25,242 nucleotides of DNA from positions 1 to 25,242 of the IMG/VR virus record IMGVR_UViG_3300027133_000016; one strand, written 5' to 3'. The stretch is from a virus. The position numbers were made by a program, and so were the translations under genes. Positions 3,648 to 25,242 of this stretch are shown in pieces (the stretch's first letter is position 1; the number at the start of each line of letters is the position of its first letter). The notes beneath the pieces are model-generated. The model worked only from the letters and a program-made list of their open reading frames with translations. It had not been told where the DNA came from and did no database searches.

Positions 3648-4451
3648 CTATGAAGCGAATGCTTTAAGTAGAGACTGATTGTCAGTTAAGCTGTAAGCTG
3701 TTCTATTAATAGTGACGTTATTTTGGGATGTAATGGGTGCTAGGTTATAGAGAGATTTTCTTAGGTTTGAAAATTCTAAAGTCATAACGAACTGGTAATC
3801 GCCACCACCCTTTGGCTGGCATCTAGTTCTGATTCTAGCTGATGTGCAGTTTGAGAAATCTTCGATCTTCTTGGTTAGCTTGGCATTCAATTTTAACGGA
3901 TCGAATTTATTCATTAAATAGAACCCATGAGTACCTACATTGATGTAGTAGGTTTTCTTCTTATTGTAGTAGTCACAGATAGCCTTAGCTGGGACTGTTA
4001 TGTGGACCTCGTTCTCACCCTTATAACTTTGTATATCAATTTCATACGCTTTGCGTTTGTCTTTAATACCACCAGTAAGTATTTTTCTACCAGCTTGGTC
4101 ATTCTGTAGAATAGGAACTTTACTTCTCCACTTCTCACCAGCAGTACCCGATACATTCATTTCTTGGAGAAGGTTGTATTGAGTTGCGATATCTCGCATC
4201 ATGATTTTCTCAGGATCGCCTTTAAGGTCTTCAGCGAATGCCCACTTACCGTTGTAGTATTTTAATACTAGAGATCCTGCTGCAGTTGGGGATATCTTTA
4301 ACTCACATCCTGTTGATGTTGATATACTTTTAGTGACGATAGAAAGATCTGGTTTATCGTGCGATGCGCCAGCTGGATCACCTACAGTGATTTTGTATTC
4401 TTTCAATACGTTATGTGCGTTTCTCTCGTAATCGAAACCTTTTTGTGCCAT
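3648..4451 (-). CDS. PD-(D/E)XK nuclease-like protein
   Basis: I start at the ATG at 4449-4451 (MAQKGFDYERNAHN), which has GGGG nine bases upstream; a TTG-initiated version at 4466 would begin inside the palindrome. The 267-aa protein shows a PD-(D/E)XK pattern near the N-terminus: Glu9 in a helix, PD at 34-35 in KPDLSIV, and ELK at 50-52 in GCELKIS, followed by an aromatic strand around KYYNGKWAF. That arrangement belongs to restriction-endonuclease-fold enzymes that cut DNA. The C-terminal 200 residues are a separate region I do not recognise. It ends the uvsX-gp41-TET transcription unit. Nuclease identity is by motif only; a structural role cannot be ruled out. Confidence 0.6.
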   Translation of the reverse strand: MAQKGFDYERNAHNVLKEYKITVGDPAGASHDKPDLSIVTKSISTSTGCELKISPTAAGSLVLKYYNGKWAFAEDLKGDPEKIMMRDIATQYNLLQEMNVSGTAGEKWRSKVPILQNDQAGRKILTGGIKDKRKAYEIDIQSYKGENEVHITVPAKAICDYYNKKKTYYINVGTHGFYLMNKFDPLKLNAKLTKKIEDFSNCTSARIRTRCQPKGGGDYQFVMTLEFSNLRKSLYNLAPITSQNNVTINRTAYSLTDNQSLLKAFAS

Positions 4452-5202: not shown

Positions 5203-5655
5203 CTATTTGATAAAAGGAACTGGCTCCTGCATACCCCTTTCCCAAAAATACAACTCAACAGTTTGGGGTAACAGTTTGCGCATCCCTCTCAGTACTTTTT
5301 TGTTGTCTTCATAATGTCGTTGTATACCCAATTCAAGCACCCTTTCGGACTTAAATCGGACTACATTTTCAACAGTTCTGGTATTATCTAGAAGATGGAA
5401 GGAAATTACTCTTCCACCATAATATTTATTCAGCCAGTCTTTTGTGATTGTATGTATTCTTGGCTCTCGTTTTCTTGCAGAAATGGCGTAAAATTGGGTC
5501 TCAACTGGCTCTATAAGTTTCTCGGCATTCTCGTACCAATCGTACAAAAAGTCCTTCCTAGCCTTTCTTTGAACCCCATTCATTTTACCCCACTTCATTT
5601 CGGATGGCGGTGGCTGAGCAGCCAGAACCCCATCGATGTCATAAGAAACTATCAT
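5203..5655 (-). CDS. HAD-superfamily phosphatase
   Basis: All four HAD motifs can be placed in this 150-aa protein: motif I YDIDGVLA with Asp6 (nucleophile) and Asp8, motif II AISAR with Ser59, motif III Lys102 in RFKSER, and motif IV YEDN with Glu116-Asp117. There is little room for a cap domain, as in polynucleotide 3'-phosphatases and magnesium-dependent nucleotide phosphatases. The start overlaps the glycosyltransferase stop as ATGA with no ribosome site of its own, so the two are translationally coupled. That coupling suggests a shared pathway, for example processing of a modified nucleotide or removing a phosphate released during glycosylation, but the substrate is not visible. Confidence 0.8.
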   Translation of the reverse strand: MIVSYDIDGVLAAQPPPSEMKWGKMNGVQRKARKDFLYDWYENAEKLIEPVETQFYAISARKREPRIHTITKDWLNKYYGGRVISFHLLDNTRTVENVVRFKSERVLELGIQRHYEDNKKVLRGMRKLLPQTVELYFWERGMQEPVPFIK

Positions 5656-6659
5656 AGGATTAATGGATCAACCTTTCCAGTCTTTTCTACAACAGCTTTC
5701 TGCTTTTCCCAGATATTTCTACGGACTTCCTCTGGGAATGACGCAAACTTATCCAACTCCATTTTGGTATCTGTAGGGAAACACCAATTCAAACCATTGT
5801 TACCTTTCGGTGCGCAGACAGGAATACCTGCATAAAGAGCATGATATGCACGACCAGTTCTCCAACCAGACTTCTTATGTTTATCGTCATAGACAGCTAG
5901 ACAGCCATAGAACTGTTGATAGAACTTTCTACGATCTCTTTGCTGTGGGTTTGGTAGAATCTCAAGTGCTTCAAAATCATCCCATTCAGCTTCTTTACCT
6001 GCAACTTGAAGACAACGTGAAGAAGTAAACTCTTTGAAGTATTTGGTTCTGCCATTTGGTCTACCAATGTAAACCACCTTCTCAATATTACCTGGATGAA
6101 ATTCAGCAAACTCCATACCAGATGCCATGGGTAAATCAACAGTTGTAGTTCCGATAGGACACTTCAGGATAGTTGCAACTTCATTACACTCAGTCGCATT
6201 GGCTGCAATAGTCCAACGTGACCAATCTTCATCAGGTAACAACTCCCAAAGGAATGGAAGATCTGGATCGTCATTCAAAAAGATGATGCGACCCTTATGT
6301 GCTTTAATCATCTCAACAGTTTTATCCCAGTACTTCTGATAGAACTGCAAATTAGTTCCACCAAACTCAAGCATGAGAACATCACAATCTTGATATGTGT
6401 CAAATGTTTCAAACCCATCATCTTTGGTTGCATCAGTTGCTTCTGATAGTGGAATGATTCGATGACCAAAATCAAGCATGTTCTTGAACAGAGCAACACG
6501 TTTCTCTACCCATGCTCCACGAACACCATTCTCTTTGTTGGTCAAACCAATCTTACCAGAAACTCTGCGATAACCAATTTTAGTTCCAGTATTGCTAGAG
6601 TTCTTTGAATAGAACCACTCTAACAACCTTTCTTCACCTAGAAACTCATGTAGTGACAT
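5652..6659 (-). CDS. GT-B glycosyltransferase, candidate DNA-base glycosyltransferase
   Basis: A 335-aa protein with the two-lobed GT-B layout. The N-terminal lobe holds a Rossmann-like half with repeated hydrophobic strands (CDVLMLEFGG near 92-101, RIIFLNDDPD near 124-133). The C-terminal lobe has KVVYIGRPNGR and a donor-binding region GWRTGRAYHALYAGIPV at 265-281, typical of nucleotide-sugar enzymes. Size is close to the T4 DNA glucosyltransferases (351 and 400 aa). It starts 8 bp after the TET/JBP-like dioxygenase stop with AAGG upstream. In other phages a glycosyltransferase next to a TET-like oxygenase decorates hydroxymethylated cytosine, so I infer sugar transfer to the oxidised base. 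It could instead glycosylate a protein or surface glycan. Confidence 0.8.
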   Translation of the reverse strand: MSLHEFLGEERLLEWFYSKNSSNTGTKIGYRRVSGKIGLTNKENGVRGAWVEKRVALFKNMLDFGHRIIPLSEATDATKDDGFETFDTYQDCDVLMLEFGGTNLQFYQKYWDKTVEMIKAHKGRIIFLNDDPDLPFLWELLPDEDWSRWTIAANATECNEVATILKCPIGTTTVDLPMASGMEFAEFHPGNIEKVVYIGRPNGRTKYFKEFTSSRCLQVAGKEAEWDDFEALEILPNPQQRDRRKFYQQFYGCLAVYDDKHKKSGWRTGRAYHALYAGIPVCAPKGNNGLNWCFPTDTKMELDKFASFPEEVRRNIWEKQKAVVEKTGKVDPLIL

Positions 6660-6667
6660 AATAAACC

Positions 6668-7969
6668 TTACGCAAAAAATTCATCAAGTGATCCAGACTT
6701 CATTGATTCTGGATGATATTTAATTAGGATTTCATCTCCAAGTTTTTCACGACAATAGTCGTACCACTCGTCAGAAGTCCACATACCTTCGGAAACACCA
6801 TTCCAAAGTTTACGTTGCATCGGATGTTCAGGATTCTTGCGACGTTGTTCAACGAAGTCATAACGACAGTTCTCATATTCCCAAGAACCCAACTCAAGCA
6901 TCTTCTCACGGAAGTAGCAAACCAAACTGATACGCTCAGAACCTTCTTCACAAACGATAGGAGTGTTGCCATGCATAACATCATGGTTGTTAATCAATAG
7001 CAAGTCGCCTGGACGTGGATTAACAGCAACACGATACTCAGGTGCAATCAAATAACCACCACTGTAACGTCCATCATTTGACAAAGTTAGTAGATTTGAA
7101 AGACCACTATTTAAATCGCCAACGTCATAGTGAGCAGCAGTTCTGAATGTTTTATTCACAGTAACAGTTGTGAATGGAGTTCCAGGAACTAGGAAACGAG
7201 GATCAACTTGTCTCGCTGCTTTCATCTGTGCTTCATAACGCTGTGGTAGTAGATCCCTAAAACCATTTGACAATGTTTGTAGGAATGGGTAAGCAAGTGC
7301 AAACTTCTCAGGATTCTTGGCAGTGTAAGATGTTGCACGACCATAAGGAATGCGAGGATAACGATCGAACCAACCTGCGATGCCAGAATAAACTGAGTTA
7401 GCGTAAGTGGTTGCACAAATCAATTCATCAGCAACAAAGTTTGCTTCTTTAATTTGTTCTTGTCGTGGAAGTGTACGCACTTTCTCAACCCACTGATCGA
7501 AATTAAAATTGGTTGACTTAGTTCTTTCAATCGACCAAACATTATTGCGATTAGATGGAGTAGGTGGTTTACCCTTATAGCGTTTGATAATATCTTCTAC
7601 AGGATCTCCTGCAAGACCAGAGTATGGGTCAAGGAAGTATTCAACCATCTCAGATTCATACTCAGTAACCCATTCACGATTACCCAACTTCTCACCACGT
7701 GGACCTGCTGCTGCGCCACGATTCTGTGTTTCAGTTGCAGCTTCACGAAGACCTGCATACGCTTGGTCTTGTTGTTCTTTGGTGAAGAAGTTCTTACGGA
7801 ACTTCAATACAATCCTGTCTTCATTGATAGGATCTTCACCATAAGGTGCTGGCATATAAACATCAGTATCTTCTTCGATAAGATGGTCGTAATGATTCTC
7901 GTCAACGAATTGACCAATCAAATGTTTACAATCAATCTTTTTATCAGCGACAATAACTTTAACTGTCAT
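6668..7969 (-). CDS. TET/JBP-family 2-oxoglutarate/Fe(II) DNA dioxygenase
   Basis: A 433-aa protein whose C-terminal half has the TET/JBP signature: FRTAAHYDVGDLNSGL with iron ligands His280 and Asp282, then GGYLIAPEYRVAV, then the distal ligand His333 in VMHGNTP, and the 2-oxoglutarate-binding Arg346 in ERISLVCYF. TET enzymes oxidise 5-methylcytosine and JBP hydroxylates thymine in DNA; phage members are known to make 5-hydroxymethylcytosine for further modification. The N-terminal 200 residues are not recognised. The last seven residues, SLDEFFA, closely match the polymerase tail SLEDFFG, a clamp-binding peptide in T4-like phages. The start has GGAGAG four bases upstream. It sits between gp41 helicase and the glycosyltransferase. 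Which base it modifies is unknown; no methyltransferase is in the window. Confidence 0.88.
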   Translation of the reverse strand: MTVKVIVADKKIDCKHLIGQFVDENHYDHLIEEDTDVYMPAPYGEDPINEDRIVLKFRKNFFTKEQQDQAYAGLREAATETQNRGAAAGPRGEKLGNREWVTEYESEMVEYFLDPYSGLAGDPVEDIIKRYKGKPPTPSNRNNVWSIERTKSTNFNFDQWVEKVRTLPRQEQIKEANFVADELICATTYANSVYSGIAGWFDRYPRIPYGRATSYTAKNPEKFALAYPFLQTLSNGFRDLLPQRYEAQMKAARQVDPRFLVPGTPFTTVTVNKTFRTAAHYDVGDLNSGLSNLLTLSNDGRYSGGYLIAPEYRVAVNPRPGDLLLINNHDVMHGNTPIVCEEGSERISLVCYFREKMLELGSWEYENCRYDFVEQRRKNPEHPMQRKLWNGVSEGMWTSDEWYDYCREKLGDEILIKYHPESMKSGSLDEFFA

Positions 7970-7978
7970 TTCTCTCTC

Positions 7979-9376
7979 CTAAAACTTAAATCCACTAAAC
8001 TCGTTCTCACTATGTAGTCGTTTACCAAAATCTGATTTATCAAACAATGGTTCGTCTTTTTCTTTAGTTCCAACATCTGATAGCCCTGCTTGCGCAGAAA
8101 CTTCAACATCATATAACTTCATTTTAGATCTATCGATACCAACGACAAACCTCTTGTAGAAATTTGGGTCGTTGTAACGATTCTTCAACTGCTTAACGAT
8201 AATCTGATTCAACTGCTCAAGTTCTTCATTACTCACAAGTGCGAACATGAAATCAGCTGTCGCAGGGAGTCCAAAAGATTCTGAAGTGTCCTCAAGTCCT
8301 GGGTCTGAGTTTGTAAATCCAGATCGAGTTGTTTGAGTTGCACTAACAATAGGTACGTTGTATTCAACTGCCAGTCCCCTTAGTTCTTCAGCGATAGCCT
8401 TAATATATGTATAAGAGTTTACACCATGGGTTTGTTTCATTCTAGATGAAGCACAGATATTCAGATAGTCAATAAAGATAATATCTGGAGCAAACTCTCT
8501 CTTAAGTTTTAACTCTTCCAACAAAGCACGGAAGTGACCAGCATGAGCACCTGCAGTTGGATACTCTTTGACAATCAGTGTTCCCTGTGTTTTTGTAGCA
8601 ATCTTCTGTAGACGTGAATCAAAGATATCCCGATCAACAACTTTCAATTCATCCATGGTTAGGTTAAGTAAGTTTGCATCGATACGTTCAGCGATACGTT
8701 CTTCAGCCATCTCCATTGTTATGTATAAAACATTTTTACCCTGCATAAGAACACTGGCTCCAACGTGACACATAAACAACGATTTACCAACACCTGTTCC
8801 TGCCAAAGCAATGTTCAAAGTTTTCTTACTGAGTCCACCTTTGGTGATTTTGTTGAACATCTCAAGATCGAAAGCAATTTTCTCTTCCACCCTGTGATAA
8901 AAATCATACCTATCATTAGCATCCTGAATGTAATCATGACCAACATGATTATCAAAGCAAACACCAAGTGCTTCACTAAGAATAGTAGGTATCGCATCTT
9001 GTTGATGCACTTTGTCCCTACCATCGATAATTTGAATTGATTTAAGAATCGCATTATAAACTGCCCTGTCTTTACAAAACTTTTCAGTCTGACCAATCAA
9101 CCATTCTTCATTAGGTTCTTTATTAGTCAACTGTTTGGCATATTCTTGGAACTCAGGAACTTCTTTGTCAGTTAGCCCTTTGATATTGCCAATCTCAATA
9201 GCCAGAATCTCAGGTGATGCTGGCTTATTATACTGCTCAAAAAACTCAACTAAGATTTTAGCGATAGCACTTTCTTTACGATCTGCAAAATACTCAGTCT
9301 TTAAATGAGGAACTGCCTTACGACAGAACTCCTCATTGTGAATCAGGTTCGATAGGATCGCCTGTTCTATTCTCAT
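7979..9376 (-). CDS. 41: Replicative DNA helicase gp41 (DnaB-type)
   Basis: The gp41 helicase unwinds DNA 5'-3' on the lagging strand and works with primase gp61. The 465-aa product has an N-terminal DnaB-like helical domain (AILSNLIHNEEFCRKAVPHL), then a RecA-type motor with Walker A GTGVGKS at about 193-199, an ITMEMAEERIAER H1a-type element, Walker B IIFIDYLN, and SATQTTRSG, the DnaB H3 region. Length matches T4 gp41 (475 aa). I chose the ATG at 9374-9376, preceded by AGGTGG, over an upstream GTG at 9385; either way it overlaps the preceding small gene. It follows uvsX and precedes the TET dioxygenase, placing DNA modification in the replication operon. Confidence 0.93.
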   Translation of the reverse strand: MRIEQAILSNLIHNEEFCRKAVPHLKTEYFADRKESAIAKILVEFFEQYNKPASPEILAIEIGNIKGLTDKEVPEFQEYAKQLTNKEPNEEWLIGQTEKFCKDRAVYNAILKSIQIIDGRDKVHQQDAIPTILSEALGVCFDNHVGHDYIQDANDRYDFYHRVEEKIAFDLEMFNKITKGGLSKKTLNIALAGTGVGKSLFMCHVGASVLMQGKNVLYITMEMAEERIAERIDANLLNLTMDELKVVDRDIFDSRLQKIATKTQGTLIVKEYPTAGAHAGHFRALLEELKLKREFAPDIIFIDYLNICASSRMKQTHGVNSYTYIKAIAEELRGLAVEYNVPIVSATQTTRSGFTNSDPGLEDTSESFGLPATADFMFALVSNEELEQLNQIIVKQLKNRYNDPNFYKRFVVGIDRSKMKLYDVEVSAQAGLSDVGTKEKDEPLFDKSDFGKRLHSENEFSGFKF

Positions 9377-9659
9377 CAACACCACCTGTGTACGTTAAAT
9401 TATTATTCGCAATACCTTCATGAATAAGATCTTGAAGGATATCACCTATGTATTTCTCAAAGGGTTTCATGTCAGTGATAACCTTATCGTTGTAGTCAAG
9501 AATCTCATATTCAAAACTAATCTTCAAGGAATCGTTGGCTTCATCTTCTTCGAAACCAACTTTACCATAAGAATAAATTATACCTTCATATGCACCATCT
9601 GTCAACTTTATCGCATCATGTCCATTACTGCGATTTTGCACAGTAACATAATTGCGCAT
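9333..9659 (-). CDS. Conserved hypothetical protein between uvsX and gp41 (108 aa)
   Basis: The start is the ATG at 9657-9659 (MRNYVTVQNRSNGHD), one base after the UvsX stop; a longer frame from 9707 would run back into uvsX. The protein alternates short predicted strands and charged turns (DAIKLTDGAYEGIIYSYGKV, then ISFEYEILDYND) followed by an amphipathic helix EKYIGDILQDLIHEGI. The tail is acidic and overlaps gp41 by 44 nt. I recall a gene in this position in other marine T4-like phages. Function unknown; location suggests a replication or recombination accessory. Confidence 0.75.
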   Translation of the reverse strand: MRNYVTVQNRSNGHDAIKLTDGAYEGIIYSYGKVGFEEDEANDSLKISFEYEILDYNDKVITDMKPFEKYIGDILQDLIHEGIANNNLTYTGGVDENRTGDPIEPDSQ

Positions 9660-9660
9660 A

Positions 9661-10728
9661 TTATTCTTCATCATCAATCGCAGCAAGTTCTGCATCGATA
9701 TCTTCATCTTTAAGGATATCTGTTGAACCTACCTGATATTTGTTTTTAACAAACTCAATGAAAGACTTTTGCATAAGTACTGGCATCCAGAAGTCTTTAG
9801 TATCTGTATCTTTCAGGCGATACTTCTTATCTTCAATAACACCATCTGCATCTACTTTACTATACCAACCATTACTTGGCTTGACAACATGCCCAGACTC
9901 GAGTGCGATATCAAGTAAGCCAGACCAACGGCTAATACCCCCATCATGATATACAGTAACAGGAATCTTAGATTTTTCACGCACATAACGAGATTTCTCC
10001 ACATTGATAATAAAATTATATCCAACAACTTCAGTCCCTTCTTTTTCTTGTTGACGACCAAGAATGTATACATTATCGGCAGAGTACATGGCACCAGTTC
10101 CACCACCGACAATAGGTTTGGGGAACATACCGATCTCCATATATGTATGATTAACAACAACCAATGGAATATCTTTAAGGTTCAGGTGTGGTGTAATCAT
10201 ACGGAACAATGACTTCATCTGTTTGGCACGACTCATATCAGCAACAGATTTGCCATCAAGTGCATCTTCTACTTCCTTCTTAGACGCAAGATTACCAATA
10301 GAATCAATAACAATAATAAGATGGTCGCCACGTTCAACTCCTTGTAGCTGTTGCATGATGTCAAACTTCAACTGCTCTACGTCAGTAAGTGGTGTATGGA
10401 TAACACGCTCGGTATCAATACCGAAAGAATCAAAGTATGCTTGAGGTGTGCCGAACTCTGAGTCGTAGAAAAGCAACGCAGCATCGGGGTACTTGTCCAT
10501 ATAAGACTTAGCCATTAGCAAACTGAATGCTGTCTTGAAGTGTTTACTTGGTCCAGCCCACATTGTGATACCTGGAGTCAAACCACCATCAAGACGACCA
10601 GACAATGCAATATTGATTGCTGGGACAGTGGTAGGAATCATATCCTTCTTTGTGAAGAACTTTGATTGTGATAGAATAGCAGAATCTTTAATCGTACTAT
10701 TCTTGCGAATTTTATCTAGTATACTCAT
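9661..10728 (-). CDS. uvsX: UvsX RecA-like recombinase
   Basis: UvsX coats single-stranded DNA and drives strand exchange for recombination-dependent replication and repair. The 355-aa protein has Walker A GPSKHFKT at 59-66, the T4-type variant of this loop, Walker B LIIVIDSIG near 116-124, and the VVVNHTYMEIG segment where RecA proteins have their DNA-binding loop region. The acidic tail (AELAAIDDEE) is typical of single-strand binding partners. Length is close to T4 UvsX (391 aa). The start has AGGAG seven bases upstream and is about 20 bases from the promoter -10, so it is the first gene of its operon. Confidence 0.95.
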   Translation of the reverse strand: MSILDKIRKNSTIKDSAILSQSKFFTKKDMIPTTVPAINIALSGRLDGGLTPGITMWAGPSKHFKTAFSLLMAKSYMDKYPDAALLFYDSEFGTPQAYFDSFGIDTERVIHTPLTDVEQLKFDIMQQLQGVERGDHLIIVIDSIGNLASKKEVEDALDGKSVADMSRAKQMKSLFRMITPHLNLKDIPLVVVNHTYMEIGMFPKPIVGGGTGAMYSADNVYILGRQQEKEGTEVVGYNFIINVEKSRYVREKSKIPVTVYHDGGISRWSGLLDIALESGHVVKPSNGWYSKVDADGVIEDKKYRLKDTDTKDFWMPVLMQKSFIEFVKNKYQVGSTDILKDEDIDAELAAIDDEE

Positions 10729-10780: not shown

Positions 10781-11335
10781 TTATTTTGGGTTAGATTTGT
10801 GATGTGGCACATCGAATACAAAGGTTACACGAACTTCATTGCCAACATTTTCAGTTCCATGTTGCAATTTATTATTGAACCACAACAAAGTTCCTGGCTC
10901 TACTATGTATTCCTCATCTCCAACCATATATTTGTATCTACCTGCGATGGAGAGATGGTAACGATCTCTGGTCTGATAATAACTACCGATGTCTATATGT
11001 TTGCCGACAGAACCACCAACTGGCAATGACAAGAATCCACAACGTGAATGGTCGTGGAAGTTTCGTTTCATAAATCTAACAATTTCTGTGTGTCTGTTAT
11101 ACGCAGGTGTTTTAATGCAATACTCAGTGTCACCAACATATTGCGTTTCATTCTCAACACCACCAATAACTAATTGCAAAACACCTGCATTAATTTGTGG
11201 GAAGTCAAATTCTTTCTGGACTGTTGAAGCACCTTTCATCTGACCTTCAGAGTTCCAATCATCTTTGTAAAGTTTTAATTGAGCAAGAATCTTTGATACG
11301 TTGATTCCTGTTTTAATCACTTTAATATTATCCAA
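10781..11335 (-). CDS. Aspartyl/asparaginyl beta-hydroxylase-like 2OG-Fe(II) oxygenase
   Basis: The C-terminal half shows LPVGGSVGKHIDIG (HxD iron-binding pair), RYHLSIAGRYKYMVGDEEY, GTLLWFNNKLQHGTEN with the distal His, and RVTFVFD with the 2-oxoglutarate Arg, the pattern of the Asp/Asn beta-hydroxylase family. Those enzymes hydroxylate proteins or small substrates. The start is unusual: the polymerase C-terminal codons supply GGAGG, and a TTG at 11333-11335 six bases further gives MDNIKVIKTGIN (184 aa) overlapping the polymerase stop. Longer frames from ATG 11368 or 11377 lie deeper in the polymerase gene. It is the last gene before the uvsX promoter. The substrate is unknown; it may be a phage or host protein. 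Confidence 0.8.
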   Translation of the reverse strand: MDNIKVIKTGINVSKILAQLKLYKDDWNSEGQMKGASTVQKEFDFPQINAGVLQLVIGGVENETQYVGDTEYCIKTPAYNRHTEIVRFMKRNFHDHSRCGFLSLPVGGSVGKHIDIGSYYQTRDRYHLSIAGRYKYMVGDEEYIVEPGTLLWFNNKLQHGTENVGNEVRVTFVFDVPHHKSNPK

Positions 11336-13817
11336 AGAAATCCTCCAATGATGACTTGGCTTCAACATTCCAACCAATCGGCTGGATTACAGTTTGCATT
11401 GCATCGAGGAATGTCTTTTCAAACTGTGTTTCATAATCAATAAAGTCATGCAAACCAAACTCTTTCGGTAGATTTTGCGGGAATGCGATAACGTCTTCCT
11501 GGAATGGATTTGGTTTTCTCACATATACAAACTTAACCTTCTCACCCTCTTTAATCAACTGATACTTCTTTTCAAGTCCAAGTTTCTTGACATAATGATT
11601 GTAAAGTAGTGAACCCCTTACATGGATAGGTGTTCCCTTGGTATAGATCGGAGAACCAGCATATGTTCTCAAACCATTTACGCCACGTGGGAAAGCAATA
11701 TCCTCTACTGGCATTTGGTTGAATTCTTCACGGAACTTTTCGATATACGAGTGTAAGTCCGCTTGACTGCCCTTGAGAATAACTTCGATCGAATCTTTAA
11801 GTTTGTCACGAATAACAGCAGGTGTACTTGACTTGACCATTTCAAGCCCCATAACTTTGAGTTTCGGTTTAGCATACTGCACTCCTTCAGAATTGTGTAC
11901 GTTCAATATGTATCTTTTCTTGGCAGTCCAGATACCCTTATCGGCAAGAACCTCACGTTTCATAATCATCTTCTGAGAGTATGCGTTCATATACTCACCC
12001 AACTTTTGATACGTTTGGTCAATGAATGGTTGGAAGATCTCTTCGCAAACCTTATCCATATATTTAATTTTCTGGTCGTCAGTTTTACCTTCGCAAACTT
12101 TCTCGATCAGTTCTTCCAATGTTAGATAGATTGAATCTGTGTCAATGGCGATAACAAAGTCTTTACCTTCTGTCTTCATGACCTTGTTGAGATAACGATT
12201 AAACTCATTTGCCATCCAACGAATCGATAGTTGACCACTGGTAGTAATACCTTCTGCCATGCGAATATCAAAGTAACGGAAATACTGATTACCCATCGCA
12301 CCATAAGCAGAGTTGAGAGCAATCTTCATTGCCATCTGCAGGTTGTTCAGTCGACTAATCTCTTTCAGTAGTTCTTTCTTGGACTTGTCGTTCTGATATT
12401 CCTGTTCAACTTTCAGCATCTGCTTCTTGAACTTACTGCGGTCTGAATACATCTTCTCCATCAACTCAGGCATGAACCCTTTGATATCTCTGCGGTAAGT
12501 CCAGCCATTGGCAGTCAACGCAAGATCCCTACGCTTACAATATTCAGTATCAACTTCTTGATTGAGCAGACGTTCAACGTTGCATGAGATCTTCTCACCA
12601 CTCAATGTTTCTGGTGAGATGTTATACTGCATAATCAAGTGAGGATATAGACTGTTCAAGTCAAAAGAAGCAACCCACTTATGCATACCCAGCAATGGGT
12701 CTTTAACGAAAGCACCTTCAAATGCTTCATTCTTACTGGAACCAACCTTGGTAGGAATGGCGATATGTTTCTTACGCAGGTGATTATAGATGATGGCGTC
12801 CCACATTCTTACCTGAGAGAATACATCTTCATAGTTAATCTTTGCATTGTATGCCATGGTAAGACACAACTCAATCAGTCGCATCTTATCTTCAAGTTTG
12901 TCAACCAACTCTACGTCGTGAATGTTATACTCAACGAAGTCTTGCCAGTAATTTGTATAGAAGTCTTTAAATGTATCTCCAGGGTTTTCTTTCTTGGCAT
13001 CACCAAGTTCTTCACCTGCGATATAATCTAGACGATAGGACTCTTGCTTTTGATAAGTGAACTTCTTATACAAGTCAAGATAGTCAAGTTGGCTTACACC
13101 ATGGATGTCAAATGAAATTTCTTCGTTACCTTTAACAAAGATCTTTCGTTCATTGATATATCCCCATGGTGAAAGTTTGGCTGCGATTGCTTCGCCAAGT
13201 TCACGCTGAATACGTTTAGTCAAATATGGTACGTCAAAGAATCCAATGTTCCATCCAGTTAGAACATCAGGATAATTCTGTTGCCAGAAAATCATAAACT
13301 CTTTGAGAAGTTGTTGCTCGTCTTTGCAACGGAAGTAAGTAACATCCTTGCGAGTATTTTCAAACTCACGTGTGCCGAAAGTGATAATACTCTTAGATTG
13401 AAAGTCTTTGATTGTGATTAGTAAGATCTCTTCATTCGCCTGTTTGACATCAGGGAATCCATCTTCAACTGCAGTTTCAATGTCGATGGTGAACACTTTA
13501 ATTTGTTCCATATCCCAACGAACATCACTCTCATAAGTGTCGCTGATATATTGGTGAACATAGTTAGTGTTTCCGTAGACGTTGAAACCCTGCACTTCTT
13601 TGTAACGATCAAAGAACTCACGTGTTTCTTTTACAGTTCCAGGTTTAACTTCATCGATAACTTGACCATCGAGTGTGCGCCACTGGCTCTCTGCTTTATT
13701 TGATGTTACATAAAGTGTTGGGTAAAAGTCGATCTTACGTTGAAACGCTCTGCCGTTTTCATAACCTCTGACACACATTTTGTTACCAAAGGGAAATACG
13801 TGCGTATAAAAAATCAT
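11328..13817 (-). CDS. 43: Family B DNA polymerase gp43
   Basis: The replicative polymerase with proofreading. The 829-aa protein carries exonuclease motifs DIE at 112-114, NIGFFD at 190-195 and YNIHD at 297-301, then polymerase motif A DLNSLYP (386-392), motif B KIALNSAYGAMGN (498-510) and motif C DTDS (559-562). It is a little shorter than T4 gp43 (898 aa). It ends SLEDFFG, a C-terminal sliding-clamp-binding peptide as in T4/RB69 polymerase. Its start overlaps the upstream small gene by 4 nt (ATGA) and lacks a clear ribosome site, so it should depend on coupling. The frame is intact with no intein or intron. Confidence 0.97.
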   Translation of the reverse strand: MIFYTHVFPFGNKMCVRGYENGRAFQRKIDFYPTLYVTSNKAESQWRTLDGQVIDEVKPGTVKETREFFDRYKEVQGFNVYGNTNYVHQYISDTYESDVRWDMEQIKVFTIDIETAVEDGFPDVKQANEEILLITIKDFQSKSIITFGTREFENTRKDVTYFRCKDEQQLLKEFMIFWQQNYPDVLTGWNIGFFDVPYLTKRIQRELGEAIAAKLSPWGYINERKIFVKGNEEISFDIHGVSQLDYLDLYKKFTYQKQESYRLDYIAGEELGDAKKENPGDTFKDFYTNYWQDFVEYNIHDVELVDKLEDKMRLIELCLTMAYNAKINYEDVFSQVRMWDAIIYNHLRKKHIAIPTKVGSSKNEAFEGAFVKDPLLGMHKWVASFDLNSLYPHLIMQYNISPETLSGEKISCNVERLLNQEVDTEYCKRRDLALTANGWTYRRDIKGFMPELMEKMYSDRSKFKKQMLKVEQEYQNDKSKKELLKEISRLNNLQMAMKIALNSAYGAMGNQYFRYFDIRMAEGITTSGQLSIRWMANEFNRYLNKVMKTEGKDFVIAIDTDSIYLTLEELIEKVCEGKTDDQKIKYMDKVCEEIFQPFIDQTYQKLGEYMNAYSQKMIMKREVLADKGIWTAKKRYILNVHNSEGVQYAKPKLKVMGLEMVKSSTPAVIRDKLKDSIEVILKGSQADLHSYIEKFREEFNQMPVEDIAFPRGVNGLRTYAGSPIYTKGTPIHVRGSLLYNHYVKKLGLEKKYQLIKEGEKVKFVYVRKPNPFQEDVIAFPQNLPKEFGLHDFIDYETQFEKTFLDAMQTVIQPIGWNVEAKSSLEDFFG

Positions 13818-20045: not shown

Positions 20046-20522
20046 TTATTTCTCCTCATTCAATAATTGTTTCTCACCTTTAGACTTAATAGCAACTTTC
20101 TTTGGTTTACTTTCTTCAGGTGTTAGACGCTCTAAAGCAATCTTCAACATACCATTAAAAAGTTCTGCGTCTTTAACTTCTACATTATCTTCAAGAGCAA
20201 ACCAACGAGTGAACGCACGATTAGCAATACCCTTAAATACAAAGTTTTCATCATCAGATACGCTATTAACATTACCTTTGATTACTAACTTGCCACCATC
20301 AATCTCGATATCGATGTCTTGCTTAGAGAAACCAGCTACAGCCAATTCGATTGTATATGAGTTCTCACTGTTCTTACGAATGTTGTATGGAGGATAGTTA
20401 GGAATATTTTTGGTGATCTGATCATGCATCTCTTTATATTGAGAAAGAGTCTTATCAAATCCAATAAAGAATTTTTCTAGTTCTTTATCATTCCACAAGT
20501 TTGGGATAAATTGACGATTCAT
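20046..20522 (-). CDS. hsp20: Hsp20 small heat shock protein
   Basis: A 158-aa alpha-crystallin-domain chaperone of the IbpA type, which holds unfolded proteins in large oligomers. The domain runs from about YPPYNIRKNSENSYTIELAV through FSKQDIDIEIDGGKLVIKG to the strand region RAFTRWFALEDNVEVKDAEL and closes with GMLKIALER, the conserved G-x-L box. The start is the ATG at 20520-20522, with AAGGAG six bases upstream; a frame from 20564 would overlap the neighbour. T4-like marine phages commonly carry hsp20 near this cluster. It may aid head or tail assembly or protect host enzymes. Confidence 0.92.
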   Translation of the reverse strand: MNRQFIPNLWNDKELEKFFIGFDKTLSQYKEMHDQITKNIPNYPPYNIRKNSENSYTIELAVAGFSKQDIDIEIDGGKLVIKGNVNSVSDDENFVFKGIANRAFTRWFALEDNVEVKDAELFNGMLKIALERLTPEESKPKKVAIKSKGEKQLLNEEK

Positions 20523-20532
20523 AATGTTCTCC

Positions 20533-20757
20533 TTACTTAGTTCCGAATACTTTCTTAGCATCAAATGAAGTTGCTGCTGTACCTACTGTAGTGAAAAAAT
20601 CTACAGTTGATTTAGCGACAGTCTTAGCAAATGATTGCTGAGCATCGATGTAAGTTTGGAGGGATTTTGCTACTTCTTCGTTTTGAACGAAAGTCTTAAC
20701 GAATTGAGTTTTGATACCTGATACAGTATCGATAGATGTGTTTAATGCTGATAACAT
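20533..20757 (-). CDS. Small helical, possibly phasin-like protein (74 aa)
   Basis: Begins MLSALNTSIDTVSGIKTQFV with AAGGAG six bases before the ATG, the same ribosome-site layout as hsp20. It is nearly all amphipathic helix (NEEVAKSLQTYIDAQQSFAK, TVAKSTVDFFTTVGTAATSF), Ala/Thr/Val-rich with few charges, which resembles a single phasin-type helix segment. Phasins coat hydrophobic granules; here it might pair with the Hsp20 chaperone. The resemblance is weak. It follows a long structured leader. Confidence 0.7.
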   Translation of the reverse strand: MLSALNTSIDTVSGIKTQFVKTFVQNEEVAKSLQTYIDAQQSFAKTVAKSTVDFFTTVGTAATSFDAKKVFGTK

Positions 20758-23267: not shown

Positions 23268-23912
23268 TCAAAAATACCTATCATTGGGTGTATAGGTATC
23301 TACATCAACAACCCCAAAATTAAACGAAAAAGAAATCCTATCACCTTCAGATTTATTTTCTCTTACGGCATGCATAATATTTGCAGGTGCTAAAACTAAC
23401 GCACCTTCAACTGGTGTAACGTAATGTTTAACTGCAGTTATATTATTTCTGTTATGGAAATATTTGGCTGCATAATTAAAATATGTACTAATATCTGGAT
23501 GCAAATAAACCAGATCGCCAGATTCTAAAGGTACTTTAGGGTAGTATGATCCAGCTAATACATTCCCTGGATGTGGATGGCTTTCTAGATTAGATCCTGG
23601 AGGATATATATTGAACCAACAAGAATCCAAAACCAAATTAACTGTTGGTCTTGGATTTAACTCATTAAAACAAGTCTTTGCATTTTCAAAAATTAAACCA
23701 ATTAACTTTTTAGTTTCTGGGAATGCTAAAAAGTCTTTTTTAGTTAAATTATAACTCTTCCACTTTAAAGAATATTTACTATGTCCCTCTGGGTTTCTAT
23801 GCTCAGGATCTTTACTTCTTAGTGTATAAGCATGGCTAGATATTTTTTCATTATCTATTGGCAGATCTTTCCACTGCCAAATAGGATAGGTGAATATATC
23901 TGTTCGAGTCAT
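23268..23912 (-). CDS. Putative 2OG-Fe(II) oxygenase (prolyl-hydroxylase-like fold)
   Basis: From the ATG at 23910-23912 it is 214 aa (a GTG at 23921 overlapping gp45 by 4 nt is an alternative). Motifs: WFNIYPPGSNLESHPHPGNV with the HxH/HxD-type metal-binding pair in SHPHPGN, AGSYYPKVPLESGDLVYLHP, then APANIMHAVRENKSEGDRIS with the distal His and the 2-oxoglutarate Arg, and SFNFGV. This matches the family of putative 2OG-Fe(II) oxygenases found in many marine phages. If the metal pair is H-P-H rather than HxD, one ligand is atypical. The substrate is unknown. It sits between the clamp and clamp loader genes. Confidence 0.82.
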   Translation of the reverse strand: MTRTDIFTYPIWQWKDLPIDNEKISSHAYTLRSKDPEHRNPEGHSKYSLKWKSYNLTKKDFLAFPETKKLIGLIFENAKTCFNELNPRPTVNLVLDSCWFNIYPPGSNLESHPHPGNVLAGSYYPKVPLESGDLVYLHPDISTYFNYAAKYFHNRNNITAVKHYVTPVEGALVLAPANIMHAVRENKSEGDRISFSFNFGVVDVDTYTPNDRYF

Positions 23913-23917
23913 TGATC

Positions 23918-24571
23918 TCACTCAAATGTAGAGTCAGCTTCAACGGCTACATAATAAACCAAATCACCAGCACCTTTGAAGCGAGAGATCTTCTTGGAAG
24001 AAATGCTAACATCATAATCTCCAGGAAGCATCTTTAGGTTCTCAACCTTCAAGTTTGCTTTGAAAGTTTTGTTTGTGGTACCAACAGTTTCATTGAAACT
24101 ATTTGCGGTAGCATTCTTCTTATCGCCAACGACAGCAATGATAGTTGAACCATCACCGATGATTGATAGGTCTTCACTGCGAAGAACACCTGCAGTCTTA
24201 CGAAGCATATCCAACTGAGTAGCAGTTAGTTTGAAGTTAATCTCTGCTTCAGGGAATGTGATTGCTTTCTGCGGAGCAGTCAATACTTCAGGTGATGCAG
24301 CGAAGTATTTAATCGTACTCTTACCTTGTTTGATTGTAACGAACTTCTCACCGAACTCAAGTTCAGGATCTTCGAACAAAGACATGGCACCCAAGAACTC
24401 ATTGAGATCGTAGATGCCAAAGTCGGGAAATGTTTCTGCCACTGTAGTGTCAGCCATCACATTTTTCTGTGATGAGATGGTTGCAAGTTTATTACCTTGC
24501 TTCAACAACAGATTGCTATTAATACCAGCAAAGTTTTTAATTACTGCAACTGTTTCTTTAGATAACTTCAT
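23918..24571 (-). CDS. 45: Sliding clamp gp45
   Basis: The trimeric ring that holds polymerase on DNA and, in T4, activates late transcription. The 217-aa protein begins MKLSKETVAVIKNFAGINSN and has the repeated clamp fold, with FPDFGIYDLNEFLGAMSLFE in the first domain and TATQLDMLRKTAGVLRSEDL in the second, ending DLVYYVAVEADSTFE. Length is close to T4 gp45 (228 aa). AGGAG lies six bases upstream of the ATG. It is the first gene after the promoter at 24612. Confidence 0.95.
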   Translation of the reverse strand: MKLSKETVAVIKNFAGINSNLLLKQGNKLATISSQKNVMADTTVAETFPDFGIYDLNEFLGAMSLFEDPELEFGEKFVTIKQGKSTIKYFAASPEVLTAPQKAITFPEAEINFKLTATQLDMLRKTAGVLRSEDLSIIGDGSTIIAVVGDKKNATANSFNETVGTTNKTFKANLKVENLKMLPGDYDVSISSKKISRFKGAGDLVYYVAVEADSTFE

Positions 24572-24642: not shown

Positions 24643-25242
24643 TTATTTTCCAATCATCAAACCAGTCATATTGCTTGGAACAACAATAGTCTGAACCTTG
24701 CCATTCTTAATACCTTCAGAGATATTCAATGCAGCTTGAGCATTCATAAACGCAATGGAACTCGCAGAGTTATTTGCAAGAGCAGCCATCCGCTCAGCTT
24801 CTTTACGAGCAGTCTGTACTTCTACTTCTTTCTGTTTGAATTCATTCTTTGCACGAACCAATTCATTGGCAGATGCTACAACCGAATCAGCAGGAACGAT
24901 GTTACGAATAAGAACCTGTCCGATAATTAGACTTCCATCAAGTTTCTCATCAGCAAGACTCTTTTGAATCTGCTCTCTGATTGCTTGTTCCATTGCTTGA
25001 CGATTGTCCGCCATATCCAGTGCTTCGTACTTACGTGCTTCTTTGTAAATAGCATTACGTGCAGTTTGAACAATGTAATTATACATCAGGTAAATATCGC
25101 CATTGTGTTTAGCGTGGAATGCTTGACTCTTTTGACTATAGAGTTCAGCAACTTGTGCTTGATTAATGTTATAGATAACCACAGCATCAAAGTCTTTCAT
25201 AGTGCTGTTGTCTTTGGCAACAGGGGTCATGTCGTCAAGTTT
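24643..25242 (-). CDS. SPFH/band-7 (prohibitin-like) protein, 5' end cut by the window
   Basis: The frame is open to the right edge (KLDD before the first visible Met), so 199 C-terminal residues are present. They include the end of the band-7 domain (DFDAVVIYNINQAQVAELYS, LDGSLIIGQVLIRNIVPADS) and the following helical region (NEFKQKEVEVQTARKEAERM) with the Ala-rich ANNSASSIAFMNAQAAL and a hydrophobic end VVPSNMTGLMIGK. These proteins assemble rings on membranes and control proteases. Prohibitin-like genes are known in marine T4-like phages. The membrane anchor, if any, is outside the window. Confidence 0.85.
   Translation of the reverse strand, partial: KLDDMTPVAKDNSTMKDFDAVVIYNINQAQVAELYSQKSQAFHAKHNGDIYLMYNYIVQTARNAIYKEARKYEALDMADNRQAMEQAIREQIQKSLADEKLDGSLIIGQVLIRNIVPADSVVASANELVRAKNEFKQKEVEVQTARKEAERMAALANNSASSIAFMNAQAALNISEGIKNGKVQTIVVPSNMTGLMIGK

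Follow-up and report, generated by a model that had tools for sequence, protein, structure and literature searches.

We analysed a 25,242-base window of an environmental T4-like phage (IMG/VR record IMGVR_UViG_3300027133_000016, positions 1–25,242), in which a gene for a TET/JBP 2-oxoglutarate/Fe(II) dioxygenase (hereafter TET) is followed by a gene for a GT-B glycosyltransferase (GT335). The two very probably constitute a DNA hypermodification cassette, as an earlier sequence-only reading of the window had proposed; that proposal is well supported, and it is strengthened by the resemblance of the glycosyltransferase fold to that of T4 DNA beta-glucosyltransferase (beta-GT) and by the constant pairing of the two genes across viral loci. 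For the product, the same reading had offered either glycosylated hydroxymethylcytosine or a JBP-like thymine derivative. The thymine product fits our results better, and the cytosine product is less likely because no methyltransferase was found in the records searched and because related loci exchange the glycosyltransferase for a thymidine-type cassette. As regards activity, base and sugar, we infer with fair confidence that this TET clade makes 5-hydroxymethyluracil (5hmU) from thymine in DNA and that 5hmU is glycosylated in the window phage.

The TET and glycosyltransferase genes

The Tet_JBP family has exactly one match in the window. PF12851 covers residues 211–355 of the protein (E = 3e-24; 85.5 bits against a curated cut-off of 34.9), and phrog_24024, a family of unknown function, spans its whole length (E = 2.8e-159). 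The iron triad H280, D282 and H333, together with R346 (2-oxoglutarate), is invariant in all 24 aligned homologs, down to an identity of 32%. An AlphaFold model built with 20 homologs (mean predicted local distance difference test (pLDDT) score 83.8) has a TET fold, the 26 best Foldseek matches in the PDB being CcTet, human TET2, NgTet1 and CMD1. Together, profile, residues and fold bear out the full TET/JBP signature that the sequence-only reading had seen in this gene. Both TET and the glycosyltransferase are under purifying selection, with a ratio of non-synonymous to synonymous substitution rates (dN/dS) of about 0.06–0.2 (five or six relatives each). In GenBank, the TETs of L066 (DLP6), L067 (Cr30), L069 (S-CBWM1) and L089 (HTVC112P) are labelled 'SNF2 DNA repair protein'; we set this label aside as a mislabel.

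The glycosyltransferase had no match in Pfam, PHROG or NCBIfam, none by tblastn against the isolate-phage collection, and no credible one by sequence profile against the PDB, where the matches to interleukin-2 and SufI were rejected as chance. Its AlphaFold model (19 homologs; pLDDT 85.6, predicted template modelling score 0.84) finds T4 DNA beta-glucosyltransferase (1bgt) as its best Foldseek match in the PDB, over the full length (E = 7.9e-9, TM 0.67), followed by the Gtf3/GtfC-type protein O-glycosyltransferases (TM about 0.56). The enzyme had been described from the sequence as a GT-B glycosyltransferase of T4 size lying 8 bp from TET; that gap is exact (6660–6667), and the nearest fold is T4 beta-GT itself. 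By motif and hhalign, the invariant residues D131 and R270 are putative equivalents of the catalytic Asp (D100) and the donor-binding Arg (R269) of the T4 enzyme; D131 is thus a candidate catalytic base and R270 a candidate nucleotide-sugar contact.

To follow the pair across viral contigs, we gathered loci with two queries (TET and GT335), so that the counts do not reflect natural frequencies. GT335 is encoded in 35 loci and TET in 40. Wherever upstream flank was available (34 of 34 loci), TET lies directly before the glycosyltransferase or one small gene away from it; in the sole GT335 locus without TET (L029), the contig ends inside the glycosyltransferase gene. Identity to the window proteins across paired loci ranges over 39–100% for TET and 63–100% for the glycosyltransferase. 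In L015, a glycosyltransferase of 88% identity stands behind a TET of 39% in a different gene context, and in L035 one of 91% stands behind a TET of 58%. TET and the glycosyltransferase thus do not evolve as a single block; they have recombined and have nonetheless been kept together, which argues for a joint function. A PF13759 2-oxoglutarate oxygenase lies between the two genes in L016 (7184–7777) and might further oxidize the modified base or the sugar.

In most loci with enough downstream sequence, the glycosyltransferase gene is followed by one for a small HAD-like protein. This protein has neither a Pfam nor a PDB profile match; D6 and D8 of its N-terminal motif are conserved, and judging from that motif it is possibly a phosphatase or nucleotidase. 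A SulP-like transporter fragment, recognized by eye from its N-terminus, lies between the glycosyltransferase and HAD-like genes in L008 (6519–7634) and L017 (4567–5679).

Exchangeable cassettes and the search for a methyltransferase

On a tree of 54 TETs, each labelled by its downstream partner cassette, there are no fewer than 11 changes of partner, among GT335, the TET-associated glycosyltransferase TAGT (PF20691), other glycosyltransferases, and ADDT (PF18724) with a P-loop kinase (PF18751). Branches with good support require the GT335 label to have been gained or lost five times or more, and families of DNA-modifying enzymes neighbour TET in 52 of the 54 loci. Already in close relatives, with TETs 67–74% identical to that of the window, the glycosyltransferase slot is taken by other cassettes. 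One comprises a glutamine amidotransferase domain, a possible amidoligase, a GNAT protein, ADDT (E = 3.7e-22) and the P-loop kinase (E = 1.7e-6); another is TAGT (E = 4.8e-19), which in L050 stands behind a 69% identical TET. In more distant relatives, the partner is a GT4-type glycosyltransferase, or ADDT with the kinase (kinase E = 2.2e-18). Over all these cassettes, ADDT matches range from E = 3.7e-22 to 1.3e-52, the latter in Cr30, and kinase matches from E = 1.7e-6 to 2.2e-18. The window itself contains neither ADDT nor the kinase.

Two of the more distant relatives are isolates. The cassette of DLP6 (L066) contains TAGT, with a nucleotidyltransferase nearby. In C48C1 (L068, 9317–11349), TET is followed by a 344-residue protein without family assignment and then by a UDP-galactopyranose mutase (PF03275), a gene content that suggests a galactofuranose-bearing base. 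In L059 (11302–16284), genes for an amidotransferase, an amidoligase-like protein, a GNAT protein, ADDT and a P-loop kinase stand behind TET and would probably make a new hypermodified base of amino-acid type.

Among isolate phages, 376 have a relative of ADDT; most infect Salmonella, Vibrio, Klebsiella or Escherichia, and members of the genus Kuttervirus, to which ViI belongs, are among them. ViI DNA contains bases derived from 5-hydroxymethyldeoxyuridine (5hmdU), made by phosphorylation of 5hmdU by a DNA kinase and subsequent substitution (PMC6449724). Independently, adjacent genes for a tet-like protein, aGPT-PPlase2 and a 5hmU DNA kinase have been described in Rhodococcus phage Tonitrus (PMC11955845).

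We searched for the enzymes of a cytosine route, a C5-cytosine methyltransferase or a dCMP hydroxymethylase, which the sequence-only reading had named as the ones to look for elsewhere in the genome. The lineage set comprised 16 records, among them G004, which shares 6.4 kb with the window at 99.95% identity and extends the sequence of this phage population by about 95 kb (to 121 kb in total), and G001, a relative of 159,683 bases with a 70% identical TET; to these we added the four complete isolates with a TET relative, DLP6, Cr30, C48C1 and S-CBWM1. The methyltransferase family PF00145 was found in none of the 16 lineage records, in none of the four isolates and nowhere in the window, and no candidate emerged when the window, G001 and G004 were scanned in six frames for C5-methyltransferase motifs. 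A pyrimidine hydroxymethylase (dCMP or dUMP) of the thymidylate synthase (TS) family was likewise missing from all 16 records and from the window, DLP6, C48C1 and S-CBWM1, in a search that recovered both T4 gp42 dCMP hydroxymethylase and T4 thymidylate synthase as positive controls. The outcome is therefore negative for both enzymes in all longer lineage records and in three of the four isolates. Cr30 has one TS-family gene, far from its TET, and no PF00145 match; a literature search turned up no study of whether Cr30 DNA is modified. For DLP6, a restriction panel has been published, which we set aside as evidence because the sentence giving its outcome is garbled. Seven of 12 records, G001 and G004 among them, encode ThyX.

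Substrate and proposed pathway

5hmU made from thymine is the simplest reading of these data, because a TET clade without methyltransferase or hydroxymethylase alternates glycosyltransferases with a thymidine-type kinase/transferase cassette. In the pathway that we propose, the TET/JBP dioxygenase would hydroxylate the C5-methyl group of a pyrimidine that has already been built into DNA, as its family and fold suggest, and the T4 beta-GT-like enzyme would then move a sugar from a host nucleotide-sugar onto the hydroxymethyl group, as its fold and strict pairing suggest; in T4 the sugar donor is UDP-glucose. With thymine as the most likely base, the product would be glycosylated 5hmU, chemically like trypanosome base J. 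This sugar-bearing base would be formed after replication in the phage's own DNA and would shield it from host nucleases, and the HAD-like protein may process a nucleotide or sugar phosphate by-product. T4 beta-GT glucosylates 5hmU in vitro, forming base J (PMC4111573), and a beta-GT fold can therefore accept 5hmU. A wider proposal, for which we see about even chances, is a phage base J system in which TET would oxidize thymine in finished DNA with neither a methyltransferase nor a nucleotide-level hydroxymethylase, as the common first step for swapped cassettes that bring T4 beta-GT-fold or TAGT glycosyltransferases, or a kinase with an amino acid:DNA transferase.

Several points weigh against this pathway, and some of them favour a cytosine route, which we regard as unlikely though still credible. 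On that route, a host or undetected phage C5-methyltransferase would make 5-methylcytosine (5mC), TET would convert it into 5-hydroxymethylcytosine (5hmC) and the glycosyltransferase would add the sugar. The phage TETs characterized so far reportedly act on 5mC in this way (Burke et al. 2021, cited in PMC12730594), and 5hmC is the natural acceptor of T4 beta-GT. TET residue D285, three residues past the iron-ligand Asp, aligns with N1387 of TET2, a cytosine-recognizing position, and an Asp here fits the cytosine amino group as well as it does thymine. We rejected this position as a guide to the substrate: the main clade has Asp irrespective of the cassette that follows, and outlying clades have Asn or Ser. 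Perhaps a quarter of the window phage genome lies outside the sequence searched, a divergent methyltransferase could escape PF00145, and the PF00145 negatives come without a positive control from a TET phage bearing a C5-methyltransferase. The specificity of kinase and ADDT in the related cassettes is taken from family names and studied relatives. Homology of the glycosyltransferase to beta-GT rests on structure, because hhalign gives no significant score against T4 beta-GT alone and, with a beta-GT family of five members, a marginal one (E = 0.028) whose alignment is collinear over 261 columns. T4 beta-GT, moreover, acts on 5hmU only in single strands or at G mismatches (PMC4111573). Against the cytosine route stand the lack of PF00145 in all 20 lineage or isolate records, four complete TET genomes among them, and of any motif candidate; the sparseness of Dcm-type methylation in hosts; and the alternation of the same TETs with the thymidine-type ADDT/kinase cassette.

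It is improbable that TET makes a hydroxymethyl base and the glycosyltransferase acts elsewhere, on a phage protein or host lipopolysaccharide, leaving a plain 5-hydroxymethylpyrimidine in DNA. The second-best fold neighbours of the glycosyltransferase are indeed protein O-glycosyltransferases (Gtf3/GtfC), but the DNA glucosyltransferase matches best, with a clearly higher TM, the pairing with TET is strict, and other DNA-modifying glycosyltransferases (TAGT) fill the same slot. Least probable of all is a TET that acts on RNA (for example on m5C or m5U of tRNA) or that demodifies host DNA, the cluster being a loose set of auxiliary genes. Marine phages carry diverse 2-oxoglutarate dioxygenases (PMC9599517), and the window has two that are unrelated to TET; the closest folds, however, are all DNA-acting TETs, and the neighbours of TET in nearly every locus of the tree are DNA-modifying families.

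Genomic context and relation to known systems

The placement of TET and the glycosyltransferase in one operon with uvsX and gp41, as the sequence-only reading had it, agrees with the arrangement of the genes. On the minus strand, the order is DNA polymerase, uvsX, helicase, TET and glycosyltransferase, with only 9 bp between helicase and TET. A scan of this strand from the candidate promoter (9605–9577) down to position 4400, by consensus only, found no terminator site. The features are collected in the table.

Table. Features of the TET–glycosyltransferase region (window coordinates)
Feature	Position	Strand	Basis and remarks
DNA polymerase	11328–13817	-	farther upstream of the uvsX, helicase, TET and glycosyltransferase genes
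UvsX-like recombinase (uvsX)	9661–10728	-	PF00154, T4_UVSX_C
Candidate promoter, sigma-70 consensus TTGACA-17-TATAAT	9577–9605	-	12/12 consensus match only; upstream of the helicase, TET and glycosyltransferase genes
DnaB/gp41-like replicative helicase	7979–9385	-	phrog_19 E = 2.3e-127, DnaB_C; directly upstream of TET
TET/JBP 2-oxoglutarate/Fe(II) dioxygenase, 433 aa, full-length	6668–7969	-	PF12851, phrog_24024, residues, model
GT-B glycosyltransferase, T4 beta-GT fold, 335 aa	5652–6659	-	AlphaFold and Foldseek; 8 bp after TET
HAD-like small protein, 150 aa, N-terminal DxDGVLA	5203–5655	-	motif only; 4-bp overlap with the glycosyltransferase gene

Elsewhere on the minus strand, the two oxygenases unrelated to TET are an aspartyl/asparaginyl hydroxylase-like 2-oxoglutarate/Fe(II) oxygenase (PF05118) at 10781–11377, between polymerase and uvsX, and a PF13759 2-oxoglutarate/Fe(II) oxygenase at 23268–23921. 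The window also encodes an Hsp20 small heat-shock protein (20046–20564) and a Band 7/SPFH protein (24643–25230).

Phage systems that combine TET with TAGT were reportedly predicted by Iyer et al. in 2013 and shown to work on 5mC by Burke et al. in 2021. They share with the window a TET/JBP dioxygenase adjoining a DNA glycosyltransferase, and TAGT fills the very same slot in L050; their partner is TAGT, whereas that of the window has a beta-GT fold (GT-B), and the described systems include a C5-methyltransferase, of which none was found in the window lineage. In T4, the gene order is 42 (dCMP hydroxymethylase), beta-gt, segA, uvsX, 40, 41, so that gp42 and beta-gt have the same recombination and helicase genes for neighbours as the window pair, which stands at the opposite end of the block. 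The two glycosyltransferases have the same fold, with a sequence likeness no better than the marginal hhalign value given above. T4 makes 5-hydroxymethyl-dCMP before replication with a TS-family enzyme, whereas the window TET would work on DNA that has been replicated.

Kinetoplastid JBP1/JBP2 and JGT share with the window a TET/JBP hydroxylase followed by a separate glycosyltransferase, a scheme that needs no methyltransferase if thymine is the substrate; no J-binding domain was seen in the window TET. Phages M6, ViI and phiW-14 use a 5hmdU kinase and then ADDT/aGPT-PPlase, and it is ADDT and a P-loop kinase that close relatives of the window TET carry in place of the glycosyltransferase. In these phages 5hmdU is incorporated from the nucleotide pool during replication (PMC6449724), whereas the window TET would supply 5hmU within DNA.

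The combination of TET and a glycosyltransferase in phages is already known, a Pfam family being named after it. New are a partner with a beta-GT fold that belongs to no sequence family, the lack of a methyltransferase in the searched records, and the alternation of this partner, behind one TET clade, with cassettes for thymidine hypermodification. With exchangeable finishing cassettes behind one TET, its substrate would become inferable by genomics and then directly testable in cultured relatives (DLP6, Cr30, C48C1 and S-CBWM1). If the thymine reading is true, phages would oxidize thymine with a TET/JBP enzyme and then glycosylate it, as kinetoplastids do to make base J, which would bear on the origin of TET/JBP enzymes; the enzymes would provide new tools for introducing 5hmU and base J into DNA, and glycosylated thymine would join the anti-restriction chemistry of phages.

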